Shown: positions 49,967 through 64,000 of the stretch, piece by piece | How positions within the stretch are numbered: position 1 is the first letter of the stretch | Layout: each line of letters starts with the position of its first letter | NCBI RefSeq assembly: GCF_029919115.1 | Contig: NZ_CP123990.1 | Span: 5,172,501 to 5,236,500, forward strand | Reading direction: 5' to 3' | Source: Variovorax paradoxus | Lineage (GTDB): Bacteria; Pseudomonadota; Gammaproteobacteria; Burkholderiales; Burkholderiaceae_C | DNA: 64,000 nt | Notes under the pieces: model-generated | The model's input: the letters and a program-made list of their open reading frames with translations, nothing else | Databases searched by the model: none | Told to the model about the DNA's origin: nothing | Made by a program: the position numbers and the translations under genes

Positions 49967-50398
49967 TTATTTTGTCGCGCGGCGCTGCACGCAGGCCACA
50001 TAGCCATCGCCGTCGGGCGGGCGGCCGGCGCGCTGGCTCTCCCACATCATCTGCCCGAGGCATTCCATGGCCTCGTGGTGCGCATCGAGCAGCGAGCCGC
50101 GCCGCGCGGCCAGCAACTCGACGGCCTGGCGGATGCCGCGCGGCTGGTCGATCGAGCATTGCTCGCTGATCGAAAGATGCATCGACAGGTGCAGGAACGG
50201 GTTCTCGCGCCCGTTCGAGCCGTCGTACACGCGCGCCACCGCCGCGTCGGCATCGGCCAGGTCCTCGTGGTATTCGGGGTGCGCGTCGATCCATCCTGCG
50301 GCAATCGTCTCGAGGGCTTCCATCGGCAGGCCTTGCCGGTGCTTCGCATACACGTCGCAGAAAAAGCGGCGCACGTCTTCCTGGGAGGGATTGAACAT
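49967..50398 (-). CDS. DUF1841 family protein
   Basis: The 143-residue product starts at ATG 50398 with MFNPSQEDVRRFFCDVYAKHRQGLPMEALE, the typical opening of DUF1841. It continues with GWIDAHPEYHEDL, LHLSMHLSISEQCSIDQPRGI and AHHEAMECLGQMMWE. His-rich motifs (HLSMHLSI and AHHEAME) suggest metal binding. The function is unknown. It is divergent from the large repetitive protein gene. TCCCTCC-like bases give a good GGAGGGA site upstream. Confidence 0.9.
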   Translation of the reverse strand: MFNPSQEDVRRFFCDVYAKHRQGLPMEALETIAAGWIDAHPEYHEDLADADAAVARVYDGSNGRENPFLHLSMHLSISEQCSIDQPRGIRQAVELLAARRGSLLDAHHEAMECLGQMMWESQRAGRPPDGDGYVACVQRRATK

Positions 50399-50459
50399 AT
50401 CTATATGAGGAGCCGAGGAGGAGAAGAAAAAAGGTGGGGAGATCCGCGTGTGGAGGGCC

Positions 50460-50546
50460 CCGGAACACGCCGGATGTTCCGGTAGCACGACGTTACATCG
50501 TTACGTAACGAACGGCTGAAAGACCCCCGCCGACAGTGTTTTCAGC
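50460..50546. promoter_or_regulatory. Three palindromes upstream of the sigma-54 promoter (possible enhancer)
   Basis: CCGGAACA-N7-TGTTCCGG (50460-50482), CGTTACGTAACG (50499-50510) and GCTGAAA-N18-TTTCAGC (50515-50546) lie 90-180 bases upstream of the -24 element. That is the usual distance for sigma-54 activator binding sites. Which, if any, is bound is unknown. Confidence 0.5.
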
Positions 50547-50585
50547 ACAGGGCCTCGCCTCTCGAACTAAAAAAATATCTATATA

Positions 50586-50598
50586 AATCAATGGCTTG
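50586..50598 (+). promoter_or_regulatory. IHF consensus site
   Basis: AATCAATGGCTTG matches WATCAANNNNTTR at every position and has an A/T-tract just upstream (AAAAAAATATCTATATAA). It lies between the palindromes and the sigma-54 promoter, the position where IHF bends DNA to bring activator and polymerase together. Confidence 0.65.
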
Positions 50599-50637
50599 CC
50601 TCGATCTCGGTGCGGCAGCGAACAACTGTTAACGATT

Positions 50638-50652
50638 TGGCACGCCTGTTGC
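50638..50652 (+). promoter_or_regulatory. Sigma-54 (-24/-12) promoter
   Basis: TGGCACG-N4-TTGC matches the sigma-54 consensus exactly, with GG and GC separated by the required 10 bases. Transcription would start near 50664, about 24 bases before the ATG of the repetitive protein gene. Confidence 0.85.
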
Positions 50653-50687
50653 CCCTGTACATGCATCTTTTGTCACAGAGGCCCACC

Positions 50688-53441
50688 ATGAACGCAACCC
50701 AAGCATCGACCAATTCGACCGAAGGACTCGCCGCAAGTGGCGTGGCTCCCGTGGTCATCGCCCAAGCCAACAGCATGCCGCTCGGCGCTCCCGCCGCAGC
50801 CAGCTCGATGGCGCCCACCGCAACCGCGGCGCCTGCCGGCGTTGGCACATTGTCCAATGCTACGCCGGGCGTTGCCGTGATGCGCGAGGGTGTCCGCATT
50901 CCGGTGGAGGGCAACCAGACGTTGATGGCGGGCGACCGGGTGATCGTTCCCGAAGGCGGCCAAGCCAACGTGCTGTTCCCCGGCTCGGCCACCAACAAGG
51001 CGCCGCTGGCCGGCGTCTTCACCGGCGGCACCGACGCCACCATCGGCTCGACCAAGCTGCCCGGCGGCCTTGAACAAGTGAACGTGGATGTCGCCTCGGG
51101 CGACTTGCAGGTGACCCCGCCTGACAGCGATGCCGATGCGGCCGCACTGGCCGTGACGAAGAAGGTCGCCGCGGGTGGCGGCCTCGGTCTGGGCGAATTC
51201 GCACTCGGCGCTTTGGGGGCTGCCGGCCTGGGCGCCGCACTCGGCGGTGGTGGCGGCGGCGACGGCGGAACGATTCCGTTCTTCGTCGGCGGCGGCGACA
51301 CGGATGCCGATGCGGATGCCGACGCTGACGCTGACGCAGATGCGGACGGCGATGCTGACGCTGACGCTGACGCTGACGCTGACGCTGACGCTGACGCCGA
51401 TGCCGATGCCGATGCCGATGCCGATGCCGATGCCGATGCTGACGCTGACGCTGACGCCGATGCCGATGCCGACGCCGACGCCGACGCCGATGCCGATGCC
51501 GACGCAGACGCAGATGCAGATGCAGATGCCGACGCTGACGGCGACGCACTCCTGAACCCGGGCGACAACCTCATTGGCGGCGTGGTCGACTCGACGGACG
51601 GCAACCTCGGCCTGGGCGATTCACTCGATCCCGCCACCGGCCTTGTCGACGGCACGACCGACCTGATCGACGACCTCGTTGCACCGGTGCTCGGCGCCGA
51701 CTTCACACGCGACGACCCGAACCAGTTCGACCCCGTGGACAACGTCGCCGAGACGGTGATCGACAGCGTCGGTGGTGCGATCAGCCCCGCGCTCGACGGC
51801 CTGCTCGGCGAAGGCGCCACCGATTCGCTGGTCGGCCAGGTCGACCATCTGACCGACGCGCTGCAGAACGGCCTGGACAACCTCGTGGGCGACAACGGCA
51901 TCCTGATTGGCGCGACCACCGCGCTGGGTCTGGACGGCGTCATCGACGACCTCGTGGGCGACGGTGGCGTGGTCGAGAACGTGGTCGACGGCCTGCTTGG
52001 CGACAACAGCCTGGTGGCCGGCTTGGTAAGCGAAGAAGGCCTCGTGGGCGGCTTGCTGGCGGAAGACGGCGCAGTGGGCGCACTGCTTGCTGAAGACGGT
52101 GTCGTCGGCGGCCTGCTCGGCGGCGCAATGAGCGGCGATGGCCTGGTCGGCGGGCTCCTGGGCGACGAAGGCGTGCTGGGTGGCCTGCTTGGCGGTCCCC
52201 TGGGCGAAGAAGGTCTTCTGGGCGGCCTGCTCGGAGACGATGGCGCACTCGGTGGGCTGGTCGGCGGCGATGGCCTTGTGGGCGGCCTGATCGGCGGCGA
52301 CGGCGCACTCGCCGGCGTACTGGGCAGCGAAGGCCTCACCGGCGGCCTGTTGGGCCAGGACGGCTTGGTGGACAACCTGCTGGGCGATGGCGGCGTCGTA
52401 GGCGGCCTGCTGGCTGACAGCCCGCTGGGTGGCTTGCTCGGCGGCGAAGACGCCCTGCTGGGCGGTGCGCTCGATGGCGTGCTGGGCGACGAAGGCCTTC
52501 TGGGCGGCGTGCTCGGCGACGACGGTCTGGGCGGTGGCCTGCTGGGTGACAGCGGCCTTTTGAGCAACGAAGGTCCGGTCGGCAGCCTGCTGGGCGGCGA
52601 CCTCCTCGGCGGCGACTTGCTCGGCGGTGACCTGCTGAGTGGCGTGCTCGGTGAGGACGGCATCGTCGGCGGCCTGGTCGGCGGCGACCTCCTCGGCGGT
52701 GACCTGCTGGGTGGCGTGCTCGGTGAAGACGGCATCGTCGGCGGCCTGGTCGGCGGCGATCTCCTCGGCGGCGACTTGCTCGGTGAGGACGGCATCGTCG
52801 GCGGCGTGGTCGGCGGCGACCTGCTGGGTGGTGTGCTCGGCGAAGACGGCATCGTCGGCGGCCTGGTCGGCGGCGATCTGCTCGGCGGCGACCTGCTGGG
52901 TGGCGTGCTCGGCGAGGACGGCATCGTCGGCGGCCTGGTTGGTGGCGATCTGCTCGGCGGTGACCTGCTGGGCGGTGTTCTCGGCGAAGACGGCGTCGTC
53001 GGCGGTTTGCTCGGCGGCGACCTCCTCGGCGGCGACCTCCTGGGAGGCGACCTCCTCAGCGGTGTTGTCGGCGACGACGGCCTGGTCGGAAGCCTGCTGG
53101 GCAACGGCGGCCTGCTCGGCGGCGTGCTGGGCGACAGCAGCCCGGTTGCCAACATCCTTGACCCGGTGCTCGACACCGCAGGCTCGGTTGGCGAGGTGCT
53201 CGAGCCGGTGATTGCCGCCGTCTCCGAGGTGGCCGAACCCGTCACCGACATCCTGGCCGGCGCGGCCCCGACGCTTGAGCCGGTTGTCGAAACAGTCGCC
53301 AGCTTGGTCGACACCGTCGAACAAGCCGCTCCGATCGCGGCCGACGTCGTAACCCCGATCACCAGCCTGGTCGACCAGGCGGCCGGCACCGGCAGCGTTC
53401 TGACTCCGGTCACGAACATCCTGCACGGCTTGCTGGGCTAA
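50688..53441 (+). CDS. Giant repetitive secreted protein with Asp-Ala tract (putative T1SS surface protein)
   Basis: The 917-residue acidic protein starts at ATG 50688 after AGAGG. Residues about 60-125 look like the retention module of LapA/RTX-type adhesins ([39 protein letters not shown]). V160-A-A-G is a possible LapG-type cleavage site, followed by a Gly/Ala-rich helix. Residues 206-287 are almost pure Asp-Ala repeats broken by two Gly. Residues about 400-840 are Gly/Leu/Asp repeats, including nearly exact 24-residue units ([20 protein letters not shown] and so on). The end is helical and Val/Pro-rich. No classic GGxGxDxxx RTX repeat or signal peptide is present. The downstream type I system is the likely exporter. 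Automated pipelines may call it collagen-like. Confidence 0.75.
51303..51548 (+). repeat. Hexanucleotide repeat coding for poly(Asp-Ala)
   Basis: About 40 copies of a 6-base GAYGCN unit lie in tandem, with homogeneous blocks of GCTGAC and of GCCGAT. Six-base slippage would lengthen or shorten the tract without shifting the frame. Confidence 0.95.
52600..53060 (+). repeat. Tandem repeats of about 72 bases in the repetitive protein gene
   Basis: Five to six near-identical units encode [17 protein letters not shown] plus GGDLLGG variants, one of them shortened. High nucleotide identity between units points to recent expansion or recombination. Confidence 0.9.
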
Positions 53442-53522
53442 GGAACAAGGGCAGCAGTAGGAGAAGAAAAACAAGGCAAGGGGCAGGCCTCGCCGGCCTG
53501 CCCCGCGCGAAAAGGACCGAAC

Positions 53523-54026
53523 ATGAAAAACACATCCCGGATACTGGCCGTCGTCGCACTGGGGGCAAGCCTTGCCGCCTGCGGAACAGGACCCAAGAGC
53601 GGACGCGAAGACGCGACCTACTACTACTCGAACAAGGCCGTCCCGGTGGCCAAGGTAGAGCCGCCTCCGCCCGCGCCGCCGGTGCAGGAGAGCCCCGCCG
53701 CGGCAAGGATCGTGTACTTCGATTTCGACAGGTACGACATCAAGGCGCAGTACCGCAGCGTGGTGGAAGCGCATGCGAACTTCCTGCGGAATCGGCCTGC
53801 CAGCAAGGTGACGATCGAGGGCCACACCGACTTGCGCGGCGGCCGCGAATACAACCTCGCACTGGGCCAGCGCCGGGCCGAATCCGTGCAACGCGCGCTC
53901 ACGCAACTCGGCGTGCCGGCCGAGCGCATCGAAGCCGTGAGCTGGGGCCTCGAAAAACCGGCGTCGACCGAGGCCACCGAGGAGGGCCATCAGCTCAATC
54001 GCCGAGCCGAGTTCAGCTACCGCTGA
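53523..54026 (+). CDS. OmpA-family lipoprotein
   Basis: The 167-residue protein has a lipoprotein signal (ILAVVALGASLAACG, Cys as lipid site), a Pro-rich linker (VEPPPPAPPVQE) and an OmpA-like peptidoglycan-binding domain (IVYFDFDRYDIKAQYRSVVEAHANFLRNRPASKVTIEGHTDLRGGREYNLALGQRRAESVQRALTQLGV). It anchors to the outer membrane and binds the wall. It follows the repetitive protein gene by 81 bases with AAAGGA upstream. OmpA-like genes often accompany type I secreted adhesin operons. Confidence 0.92.
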   Translation: MKNTSRILAVVALGASLAACGTGPKSGREDATYYYSNKAVPVAKVEPPPPAPPVQESPAAARIVYFDFDRYDIKAQYRSVVEAHANFLRNRPASKVTIEGHTDLRGGREYNLALGQRRAESVQRALTQLGVPAERIEAVSWGLEKPASTEATEEGHQLNRRAEFSYR

Positions 54027-54132
54027 AATCCGGAGAACGCGATGCCTTCGAGGGGAGTTTCCGGTCCGCTGCGTCAAAAAAGCAAGAGCACATGACGGGC
54101 GCGATCGGTCTCCCGTATTCGATCGAGGCCGA

Positions 54133-57100
54133 ATGATGTCCTTCTCCAACCAGCTCCACGCCTGCCACGAGCGCCTGGTGCCGGTGTGCGCGGCACTACC
54201 GGCGCCTTATCCGGCATTCACGCTTTTCTTCTCGGTGAGCGACGGATCGCAGCGTGCGCACGTGGTGCACGCGCGTGCGGCCGAATTCGAGGACGCATGG
54301 CACGAAGGCGCCAAAGCCATGACCCGCTGGGTACGCGAAAACGGCATCGTGTCGCCCTGGCTGCGCATCGACTGGGTCGAGGGCGCGAGCCCGATCGACT
54401 GGGCGCAGTTCAAGGCCCAGCTTGCCGCCGTCAAGCGCAACTACTTCCGGCTCGGGCTGGCGTTCGACAAAGATTTCGAGACGGCATTCACCGAGCAGGA
54501 GCTCAACGCCAATGCCATGCTCTGCGCCGATTCGAACATTGCGCATGCGGTGGTGAATACGCGCAACTTCGAGATCTACGCCCAGGCGCGCTTCGCACGG
54601 ACTCTTGCGCTCGAACTGCCGGCGGACCGGCCGGTCTACCTGCTTGCCACGGCGGGTGTTTTCTGCCAACCCGACTGTGTGGTGCACAAGCTGGTGGGCA
54701 CGGGGCTCGATGCGGGGCGGCGCCAGGCGCCTGCGCTCAACCCGCAATCGGCACTCGACCTCGTGCGCAGCGGCGCGTCCTATCTCGCGCGCCAGGTGGA
54801 GGGAGACGGGCGGGTTGTCTACGGCTGCTTTCCGTGCTTCGACCGCCGCATTCCGACCGGCGACGCCACGCGCCACGCGAGCGTGCTCCACGCCATGATC
54901 GAAGCGTGGGAGCTCACGCGCGGCGACCCGTTGCGAGCCGCCATCGACCGCGCCCTCGGCCATCTGGCGAGCTGGCTCATACGCGGCTACACGCTCGCAG
55001 ACGGCAGCGAAGCCGCGTTTCTGGTCGATGCCGGTGAAGAGATCAAGCTGAGCGGCAATGCGTCATGCGTGCTCGCACTGGTGAAATACTGCGAGGCGAC
55101 CGACACGCGCCAATGGCTGCCCTTGCTTGAAAAGCTGGCGCAGGGCATCGTGTGGATGCAGGACGCCGCCACCGGCCGCTTCAACCACGTTCTGCACGCC
55201 GGCAACCTGCAGGTGAAGCAGGCCTCGCGCGCCGTTTACTACGACGGCGAGGCCGCTTTGGGCCTCATGCGCCTGTATGGGCTCACGCGCGATGCGCGCT
55301 GGCTCGCAGCGGTGGAAAAGGCGTTCGAGCATTTCATCGCAAGCCAGCACTGGCAGTCGCACGACCATGGCTTGAGCTGCTGCGTGAACGAGCTCACGCG
55401 CTGGAGCCCGCAAGAAAAGTACTTTCGCTTCGGCCTTCAGAACGTGGCCGGCTACCTGGACTTCGTGCTCGACCGCAAGACCACGTATCCGACGCTGCTC
55501 GCGCTCATGCTTGCTGCGCAGCAGATGCTCCAACGGCTTGAGGGAATGCCCGCCATGCGGCACCTGCTCGAAGAACTGGACACCGAAAAGTTCTACCGCG
55601 CGCTCGAATACCGCGCCCACTACCTGCTCAACGGCTTCTTCTGGCCCGAAATGGCAATGTACTTTCAGCGGCCGTCCACCGTTGCCGGGTCGTTCTTCAT
55701 CCGGCACCACGCGTTCCGCGTGCGAGTGGACGACGTGGCGCAGTATGTGTCGGGCTTTGTGGCCTACCACCACTACCTGCTCGAGCGCCGCGCGGTGCCG
55801 GCCGGCGCCGGCGGCAGCGCAAGGGACGACGGCGCCGCGTGGACCGCGAACGAGATGGCGCGCGTGACCGGCGGCAAATGGGTTGTTCGCCCGGAGGAGG
55901 GCTGGCGCGCCACCGGTGTGACGCAGCGCTCTTTCTTGCGCAAGGGCCGCGTGGTGTTCGAGCACCAGGCGCGCACTTCGAAGACGCCCCTGGCGGCGGT
56001 CGCGCTCAAGGGCGTGCTGCAGCCCGCGGCCGCCGTGTTGTGCACCGACCCTGCGCCGCACCTGGACAAACGCGTGCCCGTGCTCCAGGTGCCCGACGTG
56101 CTGCAGGCCGTGCTGGATCTGGGCGCGCATGCGCGCACCGAGTTCGGCGGCCGGGTCTGCGGGGTGCTGGGCAGCGGCATCGGCAGCAACACCGTGGCCG
56201 CAATGCTCGCCGATGCGCTGACTGTCTGGGGCGAAGTGGCCCGGCCCGAAGGCAATGTGAGCCTGCCCTCAGGCATTGCCTGGAACCTCACCTGCATGCC
56301 GCGGCATGCCGCGTATTGGGTGCTCGAGATGGGCTCGCCGCACATGCTGGCTTCGGCGCAGCTGGTGCGCCCCATGCTGGCGGTGGTCACGGGGCTTTCG
56401 GCGGCTTCGCAAAAAACGCGCGGCCCATCGGAGGCCGCGGCGCGCCTGGACAGCCGCGTTTTCCAGGGCATGGCGCCAGGCGACAGCGCCGTCCTGAACC
56501 GCGACATTCCCGAGTTTGCGACCTTCGCGGAGGCCGCAATGGCGCAGCAGCTGCAGATCGTGACCTACGGCGAGCACAAGGACGCCGACGTGCGGCTGCT
56601 CGCATTCGGCCACGGCGAGGTCCAGGCGTCGGTCTGCGGAGAACCGTTCCAGCTGCGGCTCAACGCACCTGGACGCCACATGGGCGCGAGCGCCGTGGCC
56701 GTACTCGCGGCGCTGCATGCCATGCGCCTGAAGCTGGCTGCCGCCGTGGAGCCCTTTGCCCACTTCGAGCCGCCAAGCGGACGCGGCGCGCTGCACACCA
56801 TCCACATCGGCGGCGGCAGCTTCAAGCTGATCGACGAAACCTACGACGCAAACCCCCGCTCGATGCGTGCCGCGCTCGAACTGCTGTCGCAGGCGCCTTG
56901 CGAACCGGCTCGGCGCGTCGCAATCCTCGGCGACATGCAGGAACTCGGCCCCGCCGCACAGCGCCATCACCTCGACCTGGAGCCGGAACTGCTCGCATCG
57001 CAGCCCGACCGCGTGCTGCTGTGCGGCCCACTCATGCGCGCGTTGCATGCGCGCATTCGCACCAAGGTGCGCTCGCACTGGTTCGTCGATGTGTCCGATC

Positions 57101-57210
57101 TGTCGACCGCACTCGGAGGCCTGCTGCAGCCGGGCGACTGGGTGCTGGCCAAGAGTTCCGCAGGCGTCGGCCTGTCCCGGCTCGCCCGGGTTTTGAAAGC
57201 ACTGCCATGA
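54133..57210 (+). CDS. Fusion protein: alpha-helical toroid-like region plus degenerate MurF-like ligase domain
   Basis: The 1025-residue protein has no signal peptide. Residues 1 to about 200 form an unrecognised alpha/beta domain (FTLFFSVSDGSQRAHVVHAR). Residues about 210-560 are helical and repetitive, like an alpha/alpha toroid (DATRHASVLHAMIEAWELTRGD, FNHVLHAGNLQVKQASRAVYYDGEAALGLMRLYGLT). Residues about 640-1025 match Mur ligases of the MurF type: ARPEGNVSLPSGIAWNL, AAYWVLEMGSPHMLASAQLVRPMLAVVTGLS, DETYDANPRSMRAALELL (from 901) and RRVAILGDMQELGP. The P-loop reads GSGIGSNT (680-687), lacking the GKT Lys, so ATP use is doubtful. It lies between the OmpA gene and the type I secretion genes. 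Confidence 0.8.
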   Translation: MMSFSNQLHACHERLVPVCAALPAPYPAFTLFFSVSDGSQRAHVVHARAAEFEDAWHEGAKAMTRWVRENGIVSPWLRIDWVEGASPIDWAQFKAQLAAVKRNYFRLGLAFDKDFETAFTEQELNANAMLCADSNIAHAVVNTRNFEIYAQARFARTLALELPADRPVYLLATAGVFCQPDCVVHKLVGTGLDAGRRQAPALNPQSALDLVRSGASYLARQVEGDGRVVYGCFPCFDRRIPTGDATRHASVLHAMIEAWELTRGDPLRAAIDRALGHLASWLIRGYTLADGSEAAFLVDAGEEIKLSGNASCVLALVKYCEATDTRQWLPLLEKLAQGIVWMQDAATGRFNHVLHAGNLQVKQASRAVYYDGEAALGLMRLYGLTRDARWLAAVEKAFEHFIASQHWQSHDHGLSCCVNELTRWSPQEKYFRFGLQNVAGYLDFVLDRKTTYPTLLALMLAAQQMLQRLEGMPAMRHLLEELDTEKFYRALEYRAHYLLNGFFWPEMAMYFQRPSTVAGSFFIRHHAFRVRVDDVAQYVSGFVAYHHYLLERRAVPAGAGGSARDDGAAWTANEMARVTGGKWVVRPEEGWRATGVTQRSFLRKGRVVFEHQARTSKTPLAAVALKGVLQPAAAVLCTDPAPHLDKRVPVLQVPDVLQAVLDLGAHARTEFGGRVCGVLGSGIGSNTVAAMLADALTVWGEVARPEGNVSLPSGIAWNLTCMPRHAAYWVLEMGSPHMLASAQLVRPMLAVVTGLSAASQKTRGPSEAAARLDSRVFQGMAPGDSAVLNRDIPEFATFAEAAMAQQLQIVTYGEHKDADVRLLAFGHGEVQASVCGEPFQLRLNAPGRHMGASAVAVLAALHAMRLKLAAAVEPFAHFEPPSGRGALHTIHIGGGSFKLIDETYDANPRSMRAALELLSQAPCEPARRVAILGDMQELGPAAQRHHLDLEPELLASQPDRVLLCGPLMRALHARIRTKVRSHWFVDVSDLSTALGGLLQPGDWVLAKSSAGVGLSRLARVLKALP

Positions 57211-57509
57211 AGTTCAGCGCGTACCCGCCTTTGCACTATCAACGCCATCCGGCAGGGGCAGCGCCCGCGCGCCGCTGGTGGCTCGGCTGGCTGCAGCTGC
57301 TTGGCGCCTGGCTCCTTTGCATGTTGCTGTGCGCGAATGTCGCGCTGGCGTTGGCCAAGGGGCTGCCGACCGACGAGGCCCGTCCGGCTGCCAGAAAAAC
57401 CACGGGCTGCTTGCAGGCGGAGCGCGGTAACAAAGCTGTCGCCAGGCCCGACGGATCGGCCGTGAAGGAATACACACCAACGCCGCGCTGCCTCGGCATA
57501 CAAGGGTAG
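57207..57509 (+). CDS. Small membrane protein coupled to the MurF-like fusion
   Basis: The 100-residue product starts in an ATGA overlap with the upstream stop. One hydrophobic segment (WWLGWLQLLGAWLLCMLLCANVALALA) is followed by a basic, probably periplasmic, tail containing two Cys (TTGCLQ and PRCLG). It could be an uncleaved anchor or a signal peptide ending ALA. No family is recognised. It ends 73 bases before the ABC transporter gene. Confidence 0.65.
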   Translation: MKFSAYPPLHYQRHPAGAAPARRWWLGWLQLLGAWLLCMLLCANVALALAKGLPTDEARPAARKTTGCLQAERGNKAVARPDGSAVKEYTPTPRCLGIQG

Positions 57510-57582
57510 ATATTGCTTGTAACAGAAGGGTAACAGTTGATAATCTTCGAGGCGTCACTGCCCGACGGATCGGCCATTCCCC

Positions 57583-59430
57583 ATGATCAAGTTTCTCTTG
57601 CCCAGTCAGTTGGTTGCCGATGTGCCCGAAGAGTCGGGTGCCAGTCCGTATGCGGGCGCGCTGAACGCGGCTTTCCGCGACGCTTACCCGCTGGTCAAGA
57701 GCGCGGCGTGGCGCTCGCTGCCCATCAGCCTCTTCGGTTTGCTGCCGTCGATCTTCCTGCTCCAGGTGTATGACCGCGTGCTGTCGCGCAGCGGCATCTC
57801 GACGCTGGCTGCGCTGGTGTGCGGCATTCTGTTTTTCCTGTGCATCGAGTTCTGGATGCGCTCGCGGCGTTCGCGCCTGCTGCGCAATGCGGGCGCCATC
57901 ATCGACCACGGCGTGTCGGGTGCGTTGCTGAACTCGATGCTGAACCGCCCGCTGCGTGCGCTCGAGGCGCGCCCCGCCTCGGTATGGCACCAGTTCTTTC
58001 GCGACGTGGCTTCGGTGCGCGGCACGGTCACCGGCGGCCTGGCGCAATCGATCTTCGATCTGCCGATGGCGATCTTCGCGCTGGTGGTGATCGGCATCGT
58101 GGCATTGCCGGTGTTGCCGGTGGTGGCCTTGTTCCTTGGCGTGATGGCCTTTCTGGCGTGGTGGTGGGCCGACGAGGTGCGCAGCGGCCGGGTCGAAGAA
58201 GTGCAGCGTGGCCGCGGCCTCGACCGCATGACCTCGGAGATCTGCAATGCACGCGAAACGCTCAAGACGCAATCGAACGACGGCCCCACCATCGAAATGT
58301 GGCGACAGACCTACAACGCCTGGCTGAGCGAAAGCTTCAGCAAGAACGGCCAGATCGAATCCGCACGCGACGGCACCACGGTGCTGTTGACGGTGTTCTC
58401 GGTCATCGTGGTGACGGTGGGCGCTGTTTCGGTCATGGAGCAGTGGATGACGGTCGGCGGCCTGGTCGCCTCGAACATGCTGGCCCTCAAGGCATTGCAG
58501 CCGGTCGCCGGCCTGGTCTCGAGCTGGCGTTCGCTGGCCGCCGCCAAGGAGGCCGCCAAGCGGCTCGAGAAAGTGCTTGCCGAGCCGGTCGAAAAACCGC
58601 CGAGCGGCATGACGCTGCCGCAGCCGCTGGGCCGTGTCACGCTCAAGGACGTGAGCTTCAGCTTCACCGAAGCCGCGCAGAAGCCGGTGCTCGAAAACGT
58701 CGATCTCGACATCGGGCCCGGCGGCCTGCATGTGATCGTCGGGCGCAATGGCGCCGGCAAGTCGACGCTGGTCAAGCTGCTGTCGGGCCTGTACACGCCC
58801 ACGCGCGGCATCATCAGCATCGGCGAATACGACCTGTCGCAGTTCGGCCGCGAAGAGCTCTCGCGCTGGATCAGCTATCTCTCGCAAGAGGTGTACTGGT
58901 TTGGCGGGCCGCTGATCGACACCATGCGCCGCACGGCCCCGGGGCAAAGCGACGAGCAAGTGGTGGCGGCCTGCAAGCTCTCGGGCGCGCACGACTTCAT
59001 CTCGAAGCTGCCCGACGGCTACCGCACCGTGGTGGGAGAAGGCGGCACCGGCTTTTCGGTGGGCGAGCGGCGCAAGCTGGCGCTGGCCATGAGCTTCTTG
59101 CGCAAGCCCTCGGTGCTGGTGCTCGACGAGCCGAGCAACGACCTCGACTTTCAGAGCGAGCGAACCCTGCTGGCCACGCTGCTTGCGGTGGCCAAGGTGC
59201 GCACCGTGGTGGTGGTCACGCATTCGCTGCGCATCGTGTCGGCCGCCACGGTGGTCTATCACGTCACGGGGCAAGGCAATGTCGAACAGGGAACGGCCGC
59301 GGTGATGGTGCCGAAGCTCTTCGGCGTGAAGAAGGCGCTGGTGGCGCTGACCGATCCGGCTACCGGAGACGGCGACGCCGATACGCATTCGCAGGGCGCC
59401 GCGGCACCCGCGACCCGTTCGATGGCTTGA
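57583..59430 (+). CDS. Type I secretion ABC transporter (permease/ATPase)
   Basis: The 615-residue protein has an N-terminal membrane domain (six helices, starting SLPISLFGLLPSIFLLQVYDRVLSRSGISTLAAL) and an ATPase domain with Walker A GRNGAGKS, signature FSVGERRKL (a variant of LSGGQ), Walker B VLVLDEPSNDLD and H-loop VTHS. The N-terminus is short (PrtD-like), without a C39 peptidase. It energises export of unfolded protein, most likely the repetitive protein at 50688. It is the first of three secretion genes in a row, with 45- and minus-4-base junctions. Confidence 0.92.
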   Translation: MIKFLLPSQLVADVPEESGASPYAGALNAAFRDAYPLVKSAAWRSLPISLFGLLPSIFLLQVYDRVLSRSGISTLAALVCGILFFLCIEFWMRSRRSRLLRNAGAIIDHGVSGALLNSMLNRPLRALEARPASVWHQFFRDVASVRGTVTGGLAQSIFDLPMAIFALVVIGIVALPVLPVVALFLGVMAFLAWWWADEVRSGRVEEVQRGRGLDRMTSEICNARETLKTQSNDGPTIEMWRQTYNAWLSESFSKNGQIESARDGTTVLLTVFSVIVVTVGAVSVMEQWMTVGGLVASNMLALKALQPVAGLVSSWRSLAAAKEAAKRLEKVLAEPVEKPPSGMTLPQPLGRVTLKDVSFSFTEAAQKPVLENVDLDIGPGGLHVIVGRNGAGKSTLVKLLSGLYTPTRGIISIGEYDLSQFGREELSRWISYLSQEVYWFGGPLIDTMRRTAPGQSDEQVVAACKLSGAHDFISKLPDGYRTVVGEGGTGFSVGERRKLALAMSFLRKPSVLVLDEPSNDLDFQSERTLLATLLAVAKVRTVVVVTHSLRIVSAATVVYHVTGQGNVEQGTAAVMVPKLFGVKKALVALTDPATGDGDADTHSQGAAAPATRSMA

Positions 59431-59475
59431 GCCGGGCAATAGAAGAGAAGCGCAATTGCAATTGGGAGCCGCGAC

Positions 59476-60792
59476 TTGAAATCAGATCTGCCGCAGATAC
59501 TGCAGGACGAAGAGCACAAGCGCGCGGCGCATGCCTCGCCCGAGGGCCGGCGCCGCCAGTGGGTGATTGGCAGCGTGGTGGCCGTGCTCGCCGTCGTCGG
59601 CCTGGGCTTCCCTATGGAAACAGTGGTGGTGGCACCCGGCCGCGTGATTCCGTCGGACCGCGTCAAGTCCATCCAGCACCTGGAAGGCGGCATCGTCAGC
59701 AATGTGCTGGTGAAAGAAGGCGACCGCGTGAAGCAGGGGCAGTCGCTGGTGGAGATCGACCTGGGCGGCAGCGGCCTCAACTTTGAAGAGCTCACCGCGC
59801 GCTACGCCGCCACGCAGGCCACCCGCATCCGCTTGATTGCGGAGAGCCGCGGCAAGCCGCTCAGGCGCGAGAGTTTTGCGGCGGACATCGACGAGAGCGT
59901 GCTCGACGGCGAAACCGGCGCCTATGAAGCACGCGCGCTCGAGCAGCGCGGCGTGATGGCTGGCGCGGTGTCGGGGCTCGAACAGGCGCGCAGCAAGGAG
60001 CTCGAGCAGCAGGCCAAGGTCAAGGGCCTGAACGACCGGCTGGCGCTGATGCAGAAAGAACTCGAGATATCGGAGCAACTGCTGTCCGAAAAATTGGTGG
60101 GACAGGTCGAGGTGCTCGAAAAACGCCGGTTGGTCGAGGGTGTGCGAAGCGAGCTCGCGGTGGCACGCCAGGGCGCCATATCCGCCAGCGCCGCCATTGC
60201 CGAGGCGCAGGCCAAGATGGCCGAAGCCGAAGGGCGCTTCCGGCGCCGCGCCTCCGACGAGCTGGCCACGGTGGAGCGCCAGTTCGCAAGCCTGAGCGAA
60301 GACCTTGCGCGCGCGCGCACCCAGCGCTCGCGCACCATCGTCAAGGCCCCGGCCGACGGCATCGTCAAGGGGCTGCGCAGCGCCAGCCCGGGCTGGGTCA
60401 TCAAGCCCGGCGAAGCCATCATGGAAGTCGTGCCCGACAAGGACGAGGTCATGATCGAGGCGCGGCTGAACCCCAACGACCGCGGCTTTGTCGAAGTGGG
60501 CCAGGCGGCGCGCGTCAAGATCACCGCCTACGACTACCTGCGCTACGGCGCCATCGACGGCAAGGTCACGCTGGTGGCCGCCGATGCCGACCGCGATCCG
60601 GCCGTTGCCAATGCGGCGCCCTACTACCGCATCCTGGTCGGCACCGGGCAGGCCTATGTGGGGCACCAGGACAACCGCGTCACCGCGGGCATGGAGTCGG
60701 AGGTCGACCTGAAAGTGGGGACCGATCCGTTCATCTGGTACATCCTTCGGCCCGTGCTCAAGCTGCGGCGCGAAGCCTTTCGCGAACCATGA
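59476..60792 (+). CDS. HlyD-family membrane fusion protein of the type I system
   Basis: The 438-residue protein has one N-terminal membrane helix (WVIGSVVAVLAVVGLGFP), a lipoyl-like beta domain (VKSIQHLEGGIVSNVLVKEGDRVKQGQSLVEID), long coiled-coil hairpins (about 110-300), the second lipoyl half (TIVKAPADGIVKGLRSASPGWVIKPGE) and a C-terminal beta barrel. It connects the ABC pump to the TolC-like channel. It overlaps the next gene by four bases (ATGA). Confidence 0.93.
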   Translation: MKSDLPQILQDEEHKRAAHASPEGRRRQWVIGSVVAVLAVVGLGFPMETVVVAPGRVIPSDRVKSIQHLEGGIVSNVLVKEGDRVKQGQSLVEIDLGGSGLNFEELTARYAATQATRIRLIAESRGKPLRRESFAADIDESVLDGETGAYEARALEQRGVMAGAVSGLEQARSKELEQQAKVKGLNDRLALMQKELEISEQLLSEKLVGQVEVLEKRRLVEGVRSELAVARQGAISASAAIAEAQAKMAEAEGRFRRRASDELATVERQFASLSEDLARARTQRSRTIVKAPADGIVKGLRSASPGWVIKPGEAIMEVVPDKDEVMIEARLNPNDRGFVEVGQAARVKITAYDYLRYGAIDGKVTLVAADADRDPAVANAAPYYRILVGTGQAYVGHQDNRVTAGMESEVDLKVGTDPFIWYILRPVLKLRREAFREP

Positions 60793-62345
60793 GGGCGAGC
60801 AAATCGGCAGGCCGGCGCCGCTTGGGCCGCAGCGCTCTTTGTGCAGCACTGTGCGCCGGGTTTGCACTCCCTCCGGGCGCGGCCATCGCGCAGGAACAGC
60901 CCGCGCAGCTTGTGCCTGCGCGCCGCCTTTCCACTCCGTCGATCGGTGCCGCAAGCTATGCCCAGCGCGTGAAGCAGGCGCTTGTCGCGCTGTCGCAGGA
61001 ATACCCTGAGGTGCAGTCTGCGCAAGCGGCGGCCAACACCAGCAGCTTCGGCGTCGATGCAGCCAAGAAGGCGCGTTTTCCGCGCTTCAAGATGGGCACC
61101 GCCTCCGGCAACTACAACAGCGGCGCGGCCAACGCCAAGACGGAGAACTACACCGTGCTCACAGCCGAGGCGCGGGTGAGCCTGATCGACGGCGGCGCCA
61201 TGAGCGCGGCGGTGCGCGCGGCCGAGGCCGGCAACCAGGCCGACGACGAGGCGGTGGTGACCACGTCGCAGAAGGTGGTGCTCGATGCGCTGACCGCCTA
61301 CCTGCAGGTGCAGCGCTTCGACCTGAAGAAGCAGATCGCGCGCAAGTCCACCGAGGTGGTGGCCGAGTTGTCGAAGGCCGAGGCACGGCGTGTTGCGCTT
61401 GGCGCCGCCGGCGAGAACGACCTGAACATGGCGGCTGCGCGCCGTGCCAGCGTGGCCGCGCGCGAATCCGACTTTCAGGCGCAGCGCGACGAGGCGCTCG
61501 CCAAGTTCAACACCTATTTCAAGTTCACGCCCGCCACCGATTCGCTGCCCGTGCTCGCCGCGCCCACGTTCTGGCGCATTGCGTCGCAAGAAGAAGCGCT
61601 GCGCCGCGCCGAAGAGCGCAGCACTGAAATTGCCGAGGCCAAGGGTCGTGTTGCCAAGGCCCAGGCGCTTGTCGACCAGCAGGAAGCCAGCATCTACCCC
61701 ACCGTGGATGCGGTGCTGGTCAAGAGCAAGGACCCGCGCGGCGTGTCGCCGCAAGACCCGACGCGCGCCGCCTTCGAGCTGAACTGGAACTTCGGCAACG
61801 GCTTCGATCGCCAGTTGCGCCTGAAGTCCGCACTGGCCGAGGTTGCCAACCAAGAAGCCAAGCTCGAAGGCGTGAAGCTCAATCTGCTGGAGCTCACATC
61901 GGCTTCATGGGCTCGCACGGTTTCGGGCCGCGAGCGCGAGCGACAGCTGATGGAAGCCGTCAGCACTTCGGGCCAGGCCTTTCGCGGACGGCGCCGCCTG
62001 ATGGAGTTCGGACGCGAGACCCTGCCCGCCGTGCTCGATGCGCAGCTGGACTATTACAACCTGCTGTTCGACTATGTCGACGCCGTGTTCGACCTGCGCA
62101 TTTCGGAGCTGCGCCTGGCGCGTACCACCGGAGAACTGCGCATCGACCCCGACGCAAGCAACGCATGGATCGATCGCATCTTCGGCCCACCCAGCCGGCC
62201 CGCCCTGAGCGAGGACGGCCTGCTCACCGCGCTGTGCATCTCGAGCAACGCAAGCTGCGCGAGCGAACCGGTGGTCGATCGCGGCGCAGCGGCGGTGGCA
62301 TCGAATCCGCCGCTGCGCCGGTCCACACGCCTGGCGGAGCGCTGA
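60789..62345 (+). CDS. TolC-family outer-membrane channel of the type I system
   Basis: The 518-residue protein has a signal peptide (LCAALCAGFALPPGAAIA) and the duplicated OEP/TolC helical repeats (VKQALVALSQEYPEVQSAQAAAN, QKVVLDALTAYLQVQRFDL, and ARTVSGRERERQLMEAVSTSGQAFRGRRRLMEFGRETLPAVLDAQLDYYNLLFDYVDAVFDLRISELRLARTTGEL). A C-terminal extension of about 60 residues follows. It forms the outer-membrane exit duct with the HlyD and ABC proteins. Confidence 0.92.
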   Translation: MRASKSAGRRRLGRSALCAALCAGFALPPGAAIAQEQPAQLVPARRLSTPSIGAASYAQRVKQALVALSQEYPEVQSAQAAANTSSFGVDAAKKARFPRFKMGTASGNYNSGAANAKTENYTVLTAEARVSLIDGGAMSAAVRAAEAGNQADDEAVVTTSQKVVLDALTAYLQVQRFDLKKQIARKSTEVVAELSKAEARRVALGAAGENDLNMAAARRASVAARESDFQAQRDEALAKFNTYFKFTPATDSLPVLAAPTFWRIASQEEALRRAEERSTEIAEAKGRVAKAQALVDQQEASIYPTVDAVLVKSKDPRGVSPQDPTRAAFELNWNFGNGFDRQLRLKSALAEVANQEAKLEGVKLNLLELTSASWARTVSGRERERQLMEAVSTSGQAFRGRRRLMEFGRETLPAVLDAQLDYYNLLFDYVDAVFDLRISELRLARTTGELRIDPDASNAWIDRIFGPPSRPALSEDGLLTALCISSNASCASEPVVDRGAAAVASNPPLRRSTRLAER

Positions 62346-62358
62346 GCAGGCGAAGGGC

Positions 62359-63786
62359 TCAGGCGTCTTCGGGGATGCCCGGCTCTCCGTCCAGAATTTG
62401 GTACTTGCGCATCTTTTCCCACAGCACCTTGCGGCTGATGCCCAGGTGCTGGGCGGTGTCCTGGCGCTTCCAGTCGTTGATCTCCAGCGCCGCGATGATG
62501 CGGTTGCGCTCGCTGCCGTTCCATCCCTTGCGCTCGCCATTGGCATCGAGCGCCACGCCGTTGGCGCTTGCGCCGTACCCGTTTCTTTCGGCCGGATTTG
62601 CAGAAGGCGTCGGTGTGCCGCGCGTGAGTGCAATGGCACGCTGAATCAGGTTCTGGTCCCATGAATGCAGCTGCCGCGCAATCACGCCCACCCGCTCTGC
62701 CAGGTTGCGCAGCTGCCGCACGTTGCCGGGAAAGTACGTTTCCGCCACCGCATCGCTCAGCCAGTGCGGCGTTTCACCCAGGGTTTCGAGTTCGTCGCCC
62801 AGCACATTGGCCAGCAACGCCTTGAAGATCGCGATCTTGTCGATCTCGCCACGCTCCTCGAGGCTGGGCACATGCAGCTCGATGACCGCGAGCCGGTAGA
62901 ACAGGTCGGCGCGAAACTCGCCGTTGGCCACCATTTCGCGCAGGTTGCGGTTGGTGGCGGCCACCAGCCGAAAGTCGACCCGGACCGGCGCCGTGGCGCC
63001 GAGGCGTGTGACCGCGTTGTCTTCGAGCACGCGCAGCAGCTTGACCTGCTGGTACTTGGGAAGGTCGCCGATCTCGTCGAGAAACAGCGTGCCGCCCGTC
63101 GCCTGTTCGAAATAGCCGCGATGCGCATGCACCGCGCCGGTGAACGAGCCCTTGGTATGGCCGAAGAAAAGCGACTCGAACAGGCCGTCGGGAATCGCGC
63201 CGCAGTTCACCGCCACAAATGCGCCCTTGCTGTAATGCTGGTGCCCCAGGTGCAGCTGCTGCGCAATCCGCTCCTTGCCCACGCCCGTTTCGCCGCGCAC
63301 CAGCACGCTGTGGTTGCAGTCGGCAAAGGCGGACACTTCGGCAAGCAGCGATTTCATCGCGTCCGAATGCGCCACCAGCACATCGGGCGCCTGGGGCGCC
63401 ACGTCGCGCGCCCGCAGCTGCCGCACCAGCTTGGCCACCATGGTGCGCAATTCGGCGCAGGTGAAGTCATACGGCAGAACGTGCAGGTATTCGGGCGGAT
63501 AGGTTCGCGAGTCGCGCTCGCGCGAAGCCGCCGCCACCCAGATCACCGGCATGCCCTGCAGCAACTCGGTCGCATGCGCCAGCCCCCCGCCGTCGATGAC
63601 CGTGACGCTGATGATGGCAACCGACGGCCGAAGGGCAGTGCCGCGCTCCTGCTGCGGCGCCGGCATGCCGTCGGCGCGAATCACCTCCACGTCGAAGCTC
63701 GCCATGCACCGCGCGATACGGTCGAGGATGTCGGCCTTGCCTTCCCAGACAAAGAGGTCGAGTTCGTCGAAGTTGGGAGCGCTCAT
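62359..63786 (-). CDS. Sigma-54-dependent activator with degenerate receiver domain (VpsR-like)
   Basis: The 475-residue protein has an N-terminal receiver-like domain (1 to about 130). The expected phospho-acceptor Asp is missing: the beta-3 strand reads [14 protein letters not shown] near residue 58. The AAA+ domain has Walker A GETGVGKE near 163, the sigma-54 loop GSFTGA near 212 and Walker [15 protein letters not shown]-terminal Fis-type HTH is present ([35 protein letters not shown]). The arrangement recalls VpsR/FleQ-type activators controlled by c-di-GMP. It converges on the type I operon and is the obvious candidate to activate the sigma-54 promoter at 50638. The start is ATG 63786. 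Confidence 0.92.
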
Positions 63787-63805
63787 GGGAAAAATAGCTT
63801 GAGTG

Positions 63806-64000
63806 TTAGTACACCAACTCCGCGCCCGCCTTGCACGAAAGACGGGCGCCGACTTCGGCATCGGCAAGATCAATGCCCAGGTTGTTCAGCAACGACCCCA
63901 CGAGCGAATTGACAACCGAGGAGATGAGAGGCGCGATCAGGGTCTTGAGCAACGTAAACACCGCGGTGGCGGCTGCATCCGTCGTACTCAGTATGGCGCC
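63806..64000 (-). CDS. C-terminal end of a TadG-like pilus-associated protein (partial)
   Basis: An open frame of 64 codons plus TAA enters from the right edge. It encodes an end with [48 protein letters not shown]. It resembles the tail of TadG-like proteins of Tad/Flp pilus loci, with a hydrophobic amphipathic stretch and a terminal Cys-containing beta motif. The start is outside the window. It lies 19 bases upstream of the activator gene and in the same direction, so the activator may be at the end of a Tad locus. Confidence 0.6.

Follow-up and report, generated by a model that had tools for sequence, protein, structure and literature searches.

A probable sigma-54 promoter upstream of a type I secretion adhesin operon in Variovorax paradoxus and its likely control by a Tad-encoded activator

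What switches on the type I secretion adhesin operon that begins at position 50688 of the stretch analysed here? This stretch, hereafter the window, covers 64,000 nucleotides of Variovorax paradoxus (C1:5172501-5236500 of genome G000, a single contig of 5,810,675 bases). A first-pass annotation proposed that a complete sigma-54 promoter precedes the gene of a giant repetitive protein, which would stay silent until triggered by a sigma-54 activator whose gene closes the same cluster. The explanation that we favour, with a probability of roughly 0.85, is that the operon would be transcribed from an enhancer-dependent sigma-54 promoter run, through the palindrome GTTACGTAAC, by an activator encoded with the Tad pilus genes.

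The promoter region and its conservation

Reading of the letters places all four elements of the proposed architecture (palindromes, a site for integration host factor (IHF), a -24/-12 box and the ATG) where the first-pass annotation had them. The palindromes are CCGGAACA/TGTTCCGG at 50460-50482, TCGTTAC/GTAACGA at 50498-50511 and GCTGAAA/TTTCAGC at 50515-50546. Next comes an IHF consensus (AATCAATGGCTTG, plus strand, 50586-50598), lying between the candidate enhancer and the -24/-12 promoter (TGGCACGCCTGTTGC, plus strand, 50638-50652), whose GG and GC occupy 50639-50640 and 50651-50652; both matches are exact, as had been claimed. Sigma-54 promoters start transcription about 12 bases after the -12 GC, a geometry that predicts a start at 50664 on the plus strand. 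A likely ribosome-binding site, AGAGG (50677-50681, plus strand), lies within a conserved leader ahead of the ATG of the adhesin gene (50688, plus strand).

We rejected the -24/-12 box as evidence by itself. It is the sole match with at most one mismatch in the window, but shuffled DNA averages 3.6 such matches, so that the box alone is little proof. Exact boxes of this type number 10 genome-wide against 4 for the reversed control, while the window holds 2 exact IHF matches against 0.23 expected. Conservation is the real test of the promoter. A contig scan with the 1025-residue protein of the operon returned 43 loci, the 29 nearest of which (81-90% identity) are from Variovorax. Footprinting relied on 26 loci (25 Variovorax and one Hydrogenophaga) out of the 34 that bear the cluster; L025, L028, L032, L033, L036, L041, L047 and L060 were left out, as none of their contigs reaches as far as the start of the gene. 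Two rows carry caveats, the start codon being unsettled in the Hydrogenophaga locus (L061) and a few bases off in L059, and both rows align.

Upstream of the gene, conservation is highest in three blocks: the enhancer region, the -12 region and the leader. The 12-mer CGTTACGTAACG (50499-50510, no strand assigned; core GTTACGTAAC at 50500-50509) reaches a mean identity of 0.97 over the 26 loci, the highest among the 12-mers of the 288-bp intergenic region, and GTWACGTAAC is present in all 26, as the exact GTTACGTAAC in 20 and as GTAACGTAAC in 6. An adjoining half-site, CGTTAC (50491-50496), is invariant in the 22 near relatives (identity 1.00) and falls to 0.42 in the 4 distant ones. The proposal that the palindromes are enhancers thus survives for the middle one, singled out as the predicted activator binding site, or upstream activating sequence, since its conservation is far above that of the others. 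The outer two were rejected: their arms in the near relatives (0.53 for the left arm of the first, 0.64 and 0.53 for the third) are no better conserved than the intergenic mean of 0.59, save for TGTTCCGG (50475-50482, 0.91), possibly an accessory site, whose partner arm at 50460-50467 is not conserved. The IHF element, as WATCAA-N4-TTR, is found in the window and all 26 relatives, and YGGCACGC-N2-GTTGC in the window and all 25 Variovorax relatives, the Hydrogenophaga locus having GGGCATAGCGCTTGC instead. The T that makes the -24 box exact is not conserved; TGGCACG is limited to the window and L023, the other 24 Variovorax loci having CGGCACG. Borne out by this footprint, the region 50460-50690 is probably a genuine, conserved sigma-54 promoter with IHF site and upstream enhancer.

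That the adhesin is driven mainly by a housekeeping promoter, the sigma-54 elements being minor, is very improbable. GC-rich bacteria often have degenerate housekeeping promoters that a consensus scan could miss, yet no sigma-70-like match was detected upstream of the adhesin gene (across 50380-64000 the scan gave one match against 1.0 expected, and that one is at 57517), and the best conserved blocks are the three named above. An RNA-family search of the window matched only a tRNA.

In the Hydrogenophaga locus, an extra GTTACGTAAC (L061:5103-5112) lies about 800 bp upstream of the footprint copy, and 52 bases further along an IHF match begins.

The activator, its Tad gene run and a second enhancer site

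The activator (62359-63786, minus strand) is a predicted bacterial enhancer-binding protein comprising an N-terminus without Pfam match, an AAA+ domain (PF00158 Sigma54_activat, E=2e-62) with a GSFTGA loop of the GAFTGA type, and a Fis-type helix-turn-helix domain (PF02954, HTH_8). No receiver domain was matched by Pfam over residues 1-137; since this N-terminal domain is not recognisable as a receiver, control by phosphorylation is unlikely. The AlphaFold model, with a mean predicted local distance difference test score of 54, was not used as evidence. A stretch of 14 helix-turn-helix residues is identical in all 17 activators compared (that of the window, 14 out of the 33 cluster loci in which an activator was matched and two from large plasmids). 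The PDB contains one near full-length match, the sigma-54 dependent regulator 7vbs/7vbw (residues 3-472, E=3e-189), FleQ and others matching the AAA+ part; phage records yielded nothing close to the DNA of the activator. The genome has two rpoN genes, both with the RpoN box, and five matches of the IhfA/HU type, all below the TIGR00987 cut-off (best 113.7 against 120.25 bits).

Exact copies of GTTACGTAAC number two in the 5.81-Mb genome against 0.21 expected (from dinucleotide frequencies in 124 kb of genome DNA). One is that of the adhesin promoter; the other, at C1:5248846 outside the window edge, lies about 300 bp ahead of what we take to be the Flp pilin gene from its GATAIEYG motif. A gene for an A24 prepilin peptidase follows and, from flp onward on the minus strand, genes for CpaB, a secretin, TadA and TadE-like and TadG-like proteins, then the activator, which lies 20 bp past the TadG-like gene. 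The activator gene therefore does not close the adhesin cluster, as the first-pass annotation had it: it is the last of a Tad run that is convergent with the adhesin operon, on the opposite strand and with an enhancer copy of its own. Its proposed role as the likely regulator of the adhesin promoter holds up, backed by the footprint, the genome-wide site count and the co-occurrence described below.

Since the sole other GTTACGTAAC precedes Tad genes that end in the activator gene, Tad pili and adhesin are probably turned on together; as this second site precedes flp, the activator probably activates its own locus and thereby links the adhesin with Tad pili, and positive feedback is likely because the gene run to which the activator belongs has an enhancer of its own. 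On this model, the activator would bind GTTACGTAAC at 50500-50509, perhaps aided by the GTTAC half-site, and IHF at 50586-50598 would bend the DNA, bringing the AAA+ ring to the sigma-54 polymerase at 50638-50652. Transcription would begin near 50664, leaving a 24-base leader that includes AGAGG. The same protein would act at the flp site and activate its own locus, and the adhesin operon would be silent when the activating signal is absent.

When one mismatch is allowed, the full 12-mer CGTTACGTAACG still finds no other match in the genome, whereas its reversed control finds 48; selection may be acting against the site elsewhere.

Activator and enhancer across the order

We scanned 101 Variovorax genomes for the activator (E <= 1e-100) and for an enhancer-promoter unit defined as GTWACGTAAC-N112-142-YGGCAYR-N4-TTGC (reversed control 0). 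The activator was found in 53 and the unit in 52, with both in 51 (Fisher p 3e-25, uncorrected for relatedness); one of the 48 genomes lacking the activator has the unit. Among 399 genomes of the order, Burkholderiales, the strict unit occurs in 4, all of them among the 12 with the activator (hypergeometric p 5e-7, or 6e-4 when two Variovorax are left out). For 10 non-Variovorax genomes, 40 kb around the activator were taken. A unit relaxed to one enhancer mismatch lies near the activator in 8 of them (59 permuted palindromes averaged 0.24 and never exceeded 2), a unit without mismatch in 4 (permuted palindromes 0), and the other two have, by eye, a unit with ATGC at -12. Homologues of CpaB, secretin and TadA stand beside the activator in all 10 and of TadG in 9, and Tad genes likewise precede the activator of Cupriavidus metallidurans and that of Caballeronia insecticola. 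Type I secretion homologues of the cluster are present in G128 only, besides a weak ABC match in G500.

These distributions bear on the possibility that the sigma-54 promoter is real but that another regulator, either a repressor or a different enhancer-binding protein, binds GTTACGTAAC, the neighbouring activator serving the Tad genes only. The genome does hold eight further matches to the activator protein, and one genome, G716, keeps the unit where no activator was detected. We nonetheless consider this improbable: the unit is in 51 of 53 genomes with the activator against 1 of 48 others, in other families too the site is found close to this very activator, next to Tad and collagen-like genes, and the helix-turn-helix stretch is identical among the activators compared.

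Several observations weigh against control by the Tad-encoded activator. Most of the 51 Variovorax genomes inherited one ancestral locus and are consequently not independent cases. Two genomes of the Variovorax scan (G743 and G762) have the activator and lack the unit. Conversely, G716 has the unit before an adhesin gene and no activator match genome-wide at the same threshold; at this locus (L139:907-1612) the adhesin and its promoter are kept, and the other cluster genes tested were not found within 20 kb. Across the order, 8 of the 12 activator genomes fail the strict unit pattern, and in Caballeronia (L066) the sole GTTACGTAAC lies beyond the activator with no strict box nearby. On the flp side, in the upstream regions of four Variovorax genomes TTACGTAAC is kept in all, along with several half-sites, and the complete GTTACGTAAC in two, the palindrome of the other two having lost its first G. 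The Variovorax flp promoter has only a weak sigma-54-like box (GCTGGCCGC-N2-TC-N-TGCT, or TGGCCGC-N2-TC-N-TGCT), and it also contains a conserved TTGATA/TATAAC stretch. Because of this weak box and this stretch, sigma-54 control of flp is less sure than that of the adhesin gene and, as they coexist with the palindrome and half-sites, the pilus promoter may be dual.

Right before flp, TTGATACACGGAGTTACGCTGTATAACAT is conserved in the four Variovorax genomes, with small differences in one (G000:C1, about 5248500-5248620). This stretch is perhaps a housekeeping promoter giving basal activator.

Which genes follow the unit elsewhere? Outside Variovorax they mostly encode surface proteins that are collagen-like or otherwise repetitive. 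The unit precedes the gene of a collagen-like PF15984 lipoprotein in G547, G576, G415, G305, G604, G453, G500 and G529, and the Cupriavidus unit also lies before a PF15984 gene. In G128, of the window's own family, adhesin, lipoprotein, fusion ligase, type I secretion and Tad genes and the activator are all co-directional, with the unit before the adhesin gene. Fifteen further units were taken, namely the sole unit of G780 and 14 that are the second or third in their genome, spread over 13 Variovorax genomes; they precede a paralogous adhesin gene in 12 cases, a gene for a protein with similar repeats in 1 and a hybrid histidine kinase gene in 2. A counted unit is thus not always that of the adhesin, the sole unit of G780 preceding a kinase gene. 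One more orphan adhesin was found in G122. The IHF element is present in all 15 further units, exact in 1 and with one mismatch in 14.

Looped activation needs spacing steps of one helical turn. The 67 units of the 52 Variovorax genomes measure 141-144 bp in 13 cases and 151-154 bp in 54, with none between, 137-167 bp being allowed. Measured from the first base of the enhancer to that of the IHF element, the distance is 86 bp in the window; among the 15 further units it is 75-76 bp in 13 and 85-86 bp in 2. Being one helical turn apart, these classes fit looped activation; many of the copies are orthologous, so that independent spacing cases are few.

More broadly, and at odds that we put a little short of even, this may be a hitherto undescribed, Burkholderiales-wide family of Tad-encoded sigma-54 activators that would govern a small regulon of repetitive surface proteins (type I secretion adhesins, orphan adhesins and collagen-like lipoproteins) through GTTACGTAAC enhancers at a fixed helical phase. 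In Variovorax, Tad pili and adhesin would form a self-amplifying loop, the signal entering via a non-phosphorylated pseudo-receiver.

In two Variovorax genomes (L145:376-4062 and L149:1114-4833), the unit stands before the gene of a PAS hybrid histidine kinase with receiver and Hpt domains.

Signal, known systems and the operon's products

FleQ of Pseudomonas aeruginosa resembles the window activator as an enhancer-binding protein with AAA+ and helix-turn-helix domains that acts on surface genes. It differs in that the alignment spans residues 91-369 only, and its contacts with cyclic di-GMP, which we take to be LFRS, R185 and N186, are not kept, the R and N aligning to Q and Q. BerB of Burkholderia cenocepacia, which with RpoN controls berA, is a second likeness: in the available passages of its description, an enhancer-binding protein and RpoN drive a surface or biofilm gene from a TGGCACG-type promoter (PMC5552954). 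Its target in those passages is a regulator of exopolysaccharide, whereas here an adhesin is concerned, and the likeness to BerB is one of description. The PDB entries 7vbs/7vbw, for their part, combine a near full-length match with the same helix-turn-helix stretch; no paper turned up under the entry code.

A further close system is Varpa_5148-5160 of V. paradoxus EPS, a Tad locus of the same genus that we presume to be the same locus, with a separately regulated flp/peptidase transcript. The passages available describe three predicted transcripts, a flp transcript strongly lowered in static biofilm and a pilin locus required for swarming, and do not discuss a sigma-54 activator or a type I secretion adhesin (PMC7494200). 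If the loci are the same, the adhesin may serve surface motility or early attachment, and not the mature biofilm, because the transcript falls in biofilm and swarming needs the pilin locus.

An activator switched by cyclic di-GMP, as are FleQ and BerB, would be compatible with control by the Tad-encoded activator and would make the operon answer a motile-sessile signal. In G417 the first gene past the unit encodes a GGDEF protein (L116:2992-4101), ahead of a PF15984 protein, a possible link to cyclic di-GMP, and BerB both needs RpoN and binds cyclic di-GMP according to the same passages (PMC5552954). The loss of the FleQ contacts and the fall of the flp transcript in the EPS biofilm speak against it, and on balance we find such a switch rather doubtful.

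Sigma-54 control of surface structures is already known in general (PMC3162934, PMC5552954, both in part), although the passages available of the review of sigma-54 and the bacterial exterior do not mention Flp, adhesins or type I secretion (PMC3162934). BP2158 of Bordetella pertussis was set aside, the passages available being without Tad, pilus or lipoprotein (PMC11722255). No description of the pair of activator and site with a Tad and adhesin regulon was found in the open literature, judged by titles and the starts of abstracts, most subscription journals being uncovered, and papers containing the letters GTTACGTAAC looked unrelated by title. To match an activator with the DNA that it recognises generally takes long bench work. 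In this case a 10-base site with 2 genome copies points to both the activator and two target operons. The predicted outcome is a bacterial pilus and an adhesin under one dedicated switch, the enhancer-promoter geometry is testable with a single reporter construct, and the GTTACGTAAC motif is usable to find the same regulon across Burkholderiales.

By its gene content, the operon reads as a type I secretion adhesin operon in which ABC, HlyD and TolC components accompany a repetitive protein, all encoded on the plus strand. The first gene (50688-53441) encodes a probably secreted, adhesin-like surface protein with DADADA and GGLLGGD repeats, whose N-terminus is found in relatives. It is repetitive, as the first-pass annotation held, and giant in a relative sense only, at 917 residues; as regards the RTX repeats or known adhesin domains of a LapA/RTX adhesin, the protein gave no Pfam match, and NCBIfam rows on the DADADA repeat were far under their cut-offs. 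It is followed by genes for an OmpA/Pal-like lipoprotein (53523-54026; PF00691, E=1.7e-24) and a 1025-residue fusion (54133-57210) of an alpha/alpha toroid (about 200-555) with a MurF-like ligase (about 563-1025). The secretion genes encode an ABC transporter (57583-59430; PF00005, PF00664) whose top NCBIfam rows, under their cut-offs, belong to subfamilies of type I secretion, a HlyD-type periplasmic adaptor (59476-60792; TIGR01843 above cut-off) and a TolC-type outer-membrane channel (60789-62345; PF02321).

The region of a toroid paralogue at 4.13 Mb (L130) was set aside; it has no strict IHF match, no enhancer copy nearby and two weak promoter-like matches in 20 kb. The paralogue itself (G000:C1:4133598-4135214) is a second relative of the toroid half in this genome, with 50% identity and one in-frame TGA.

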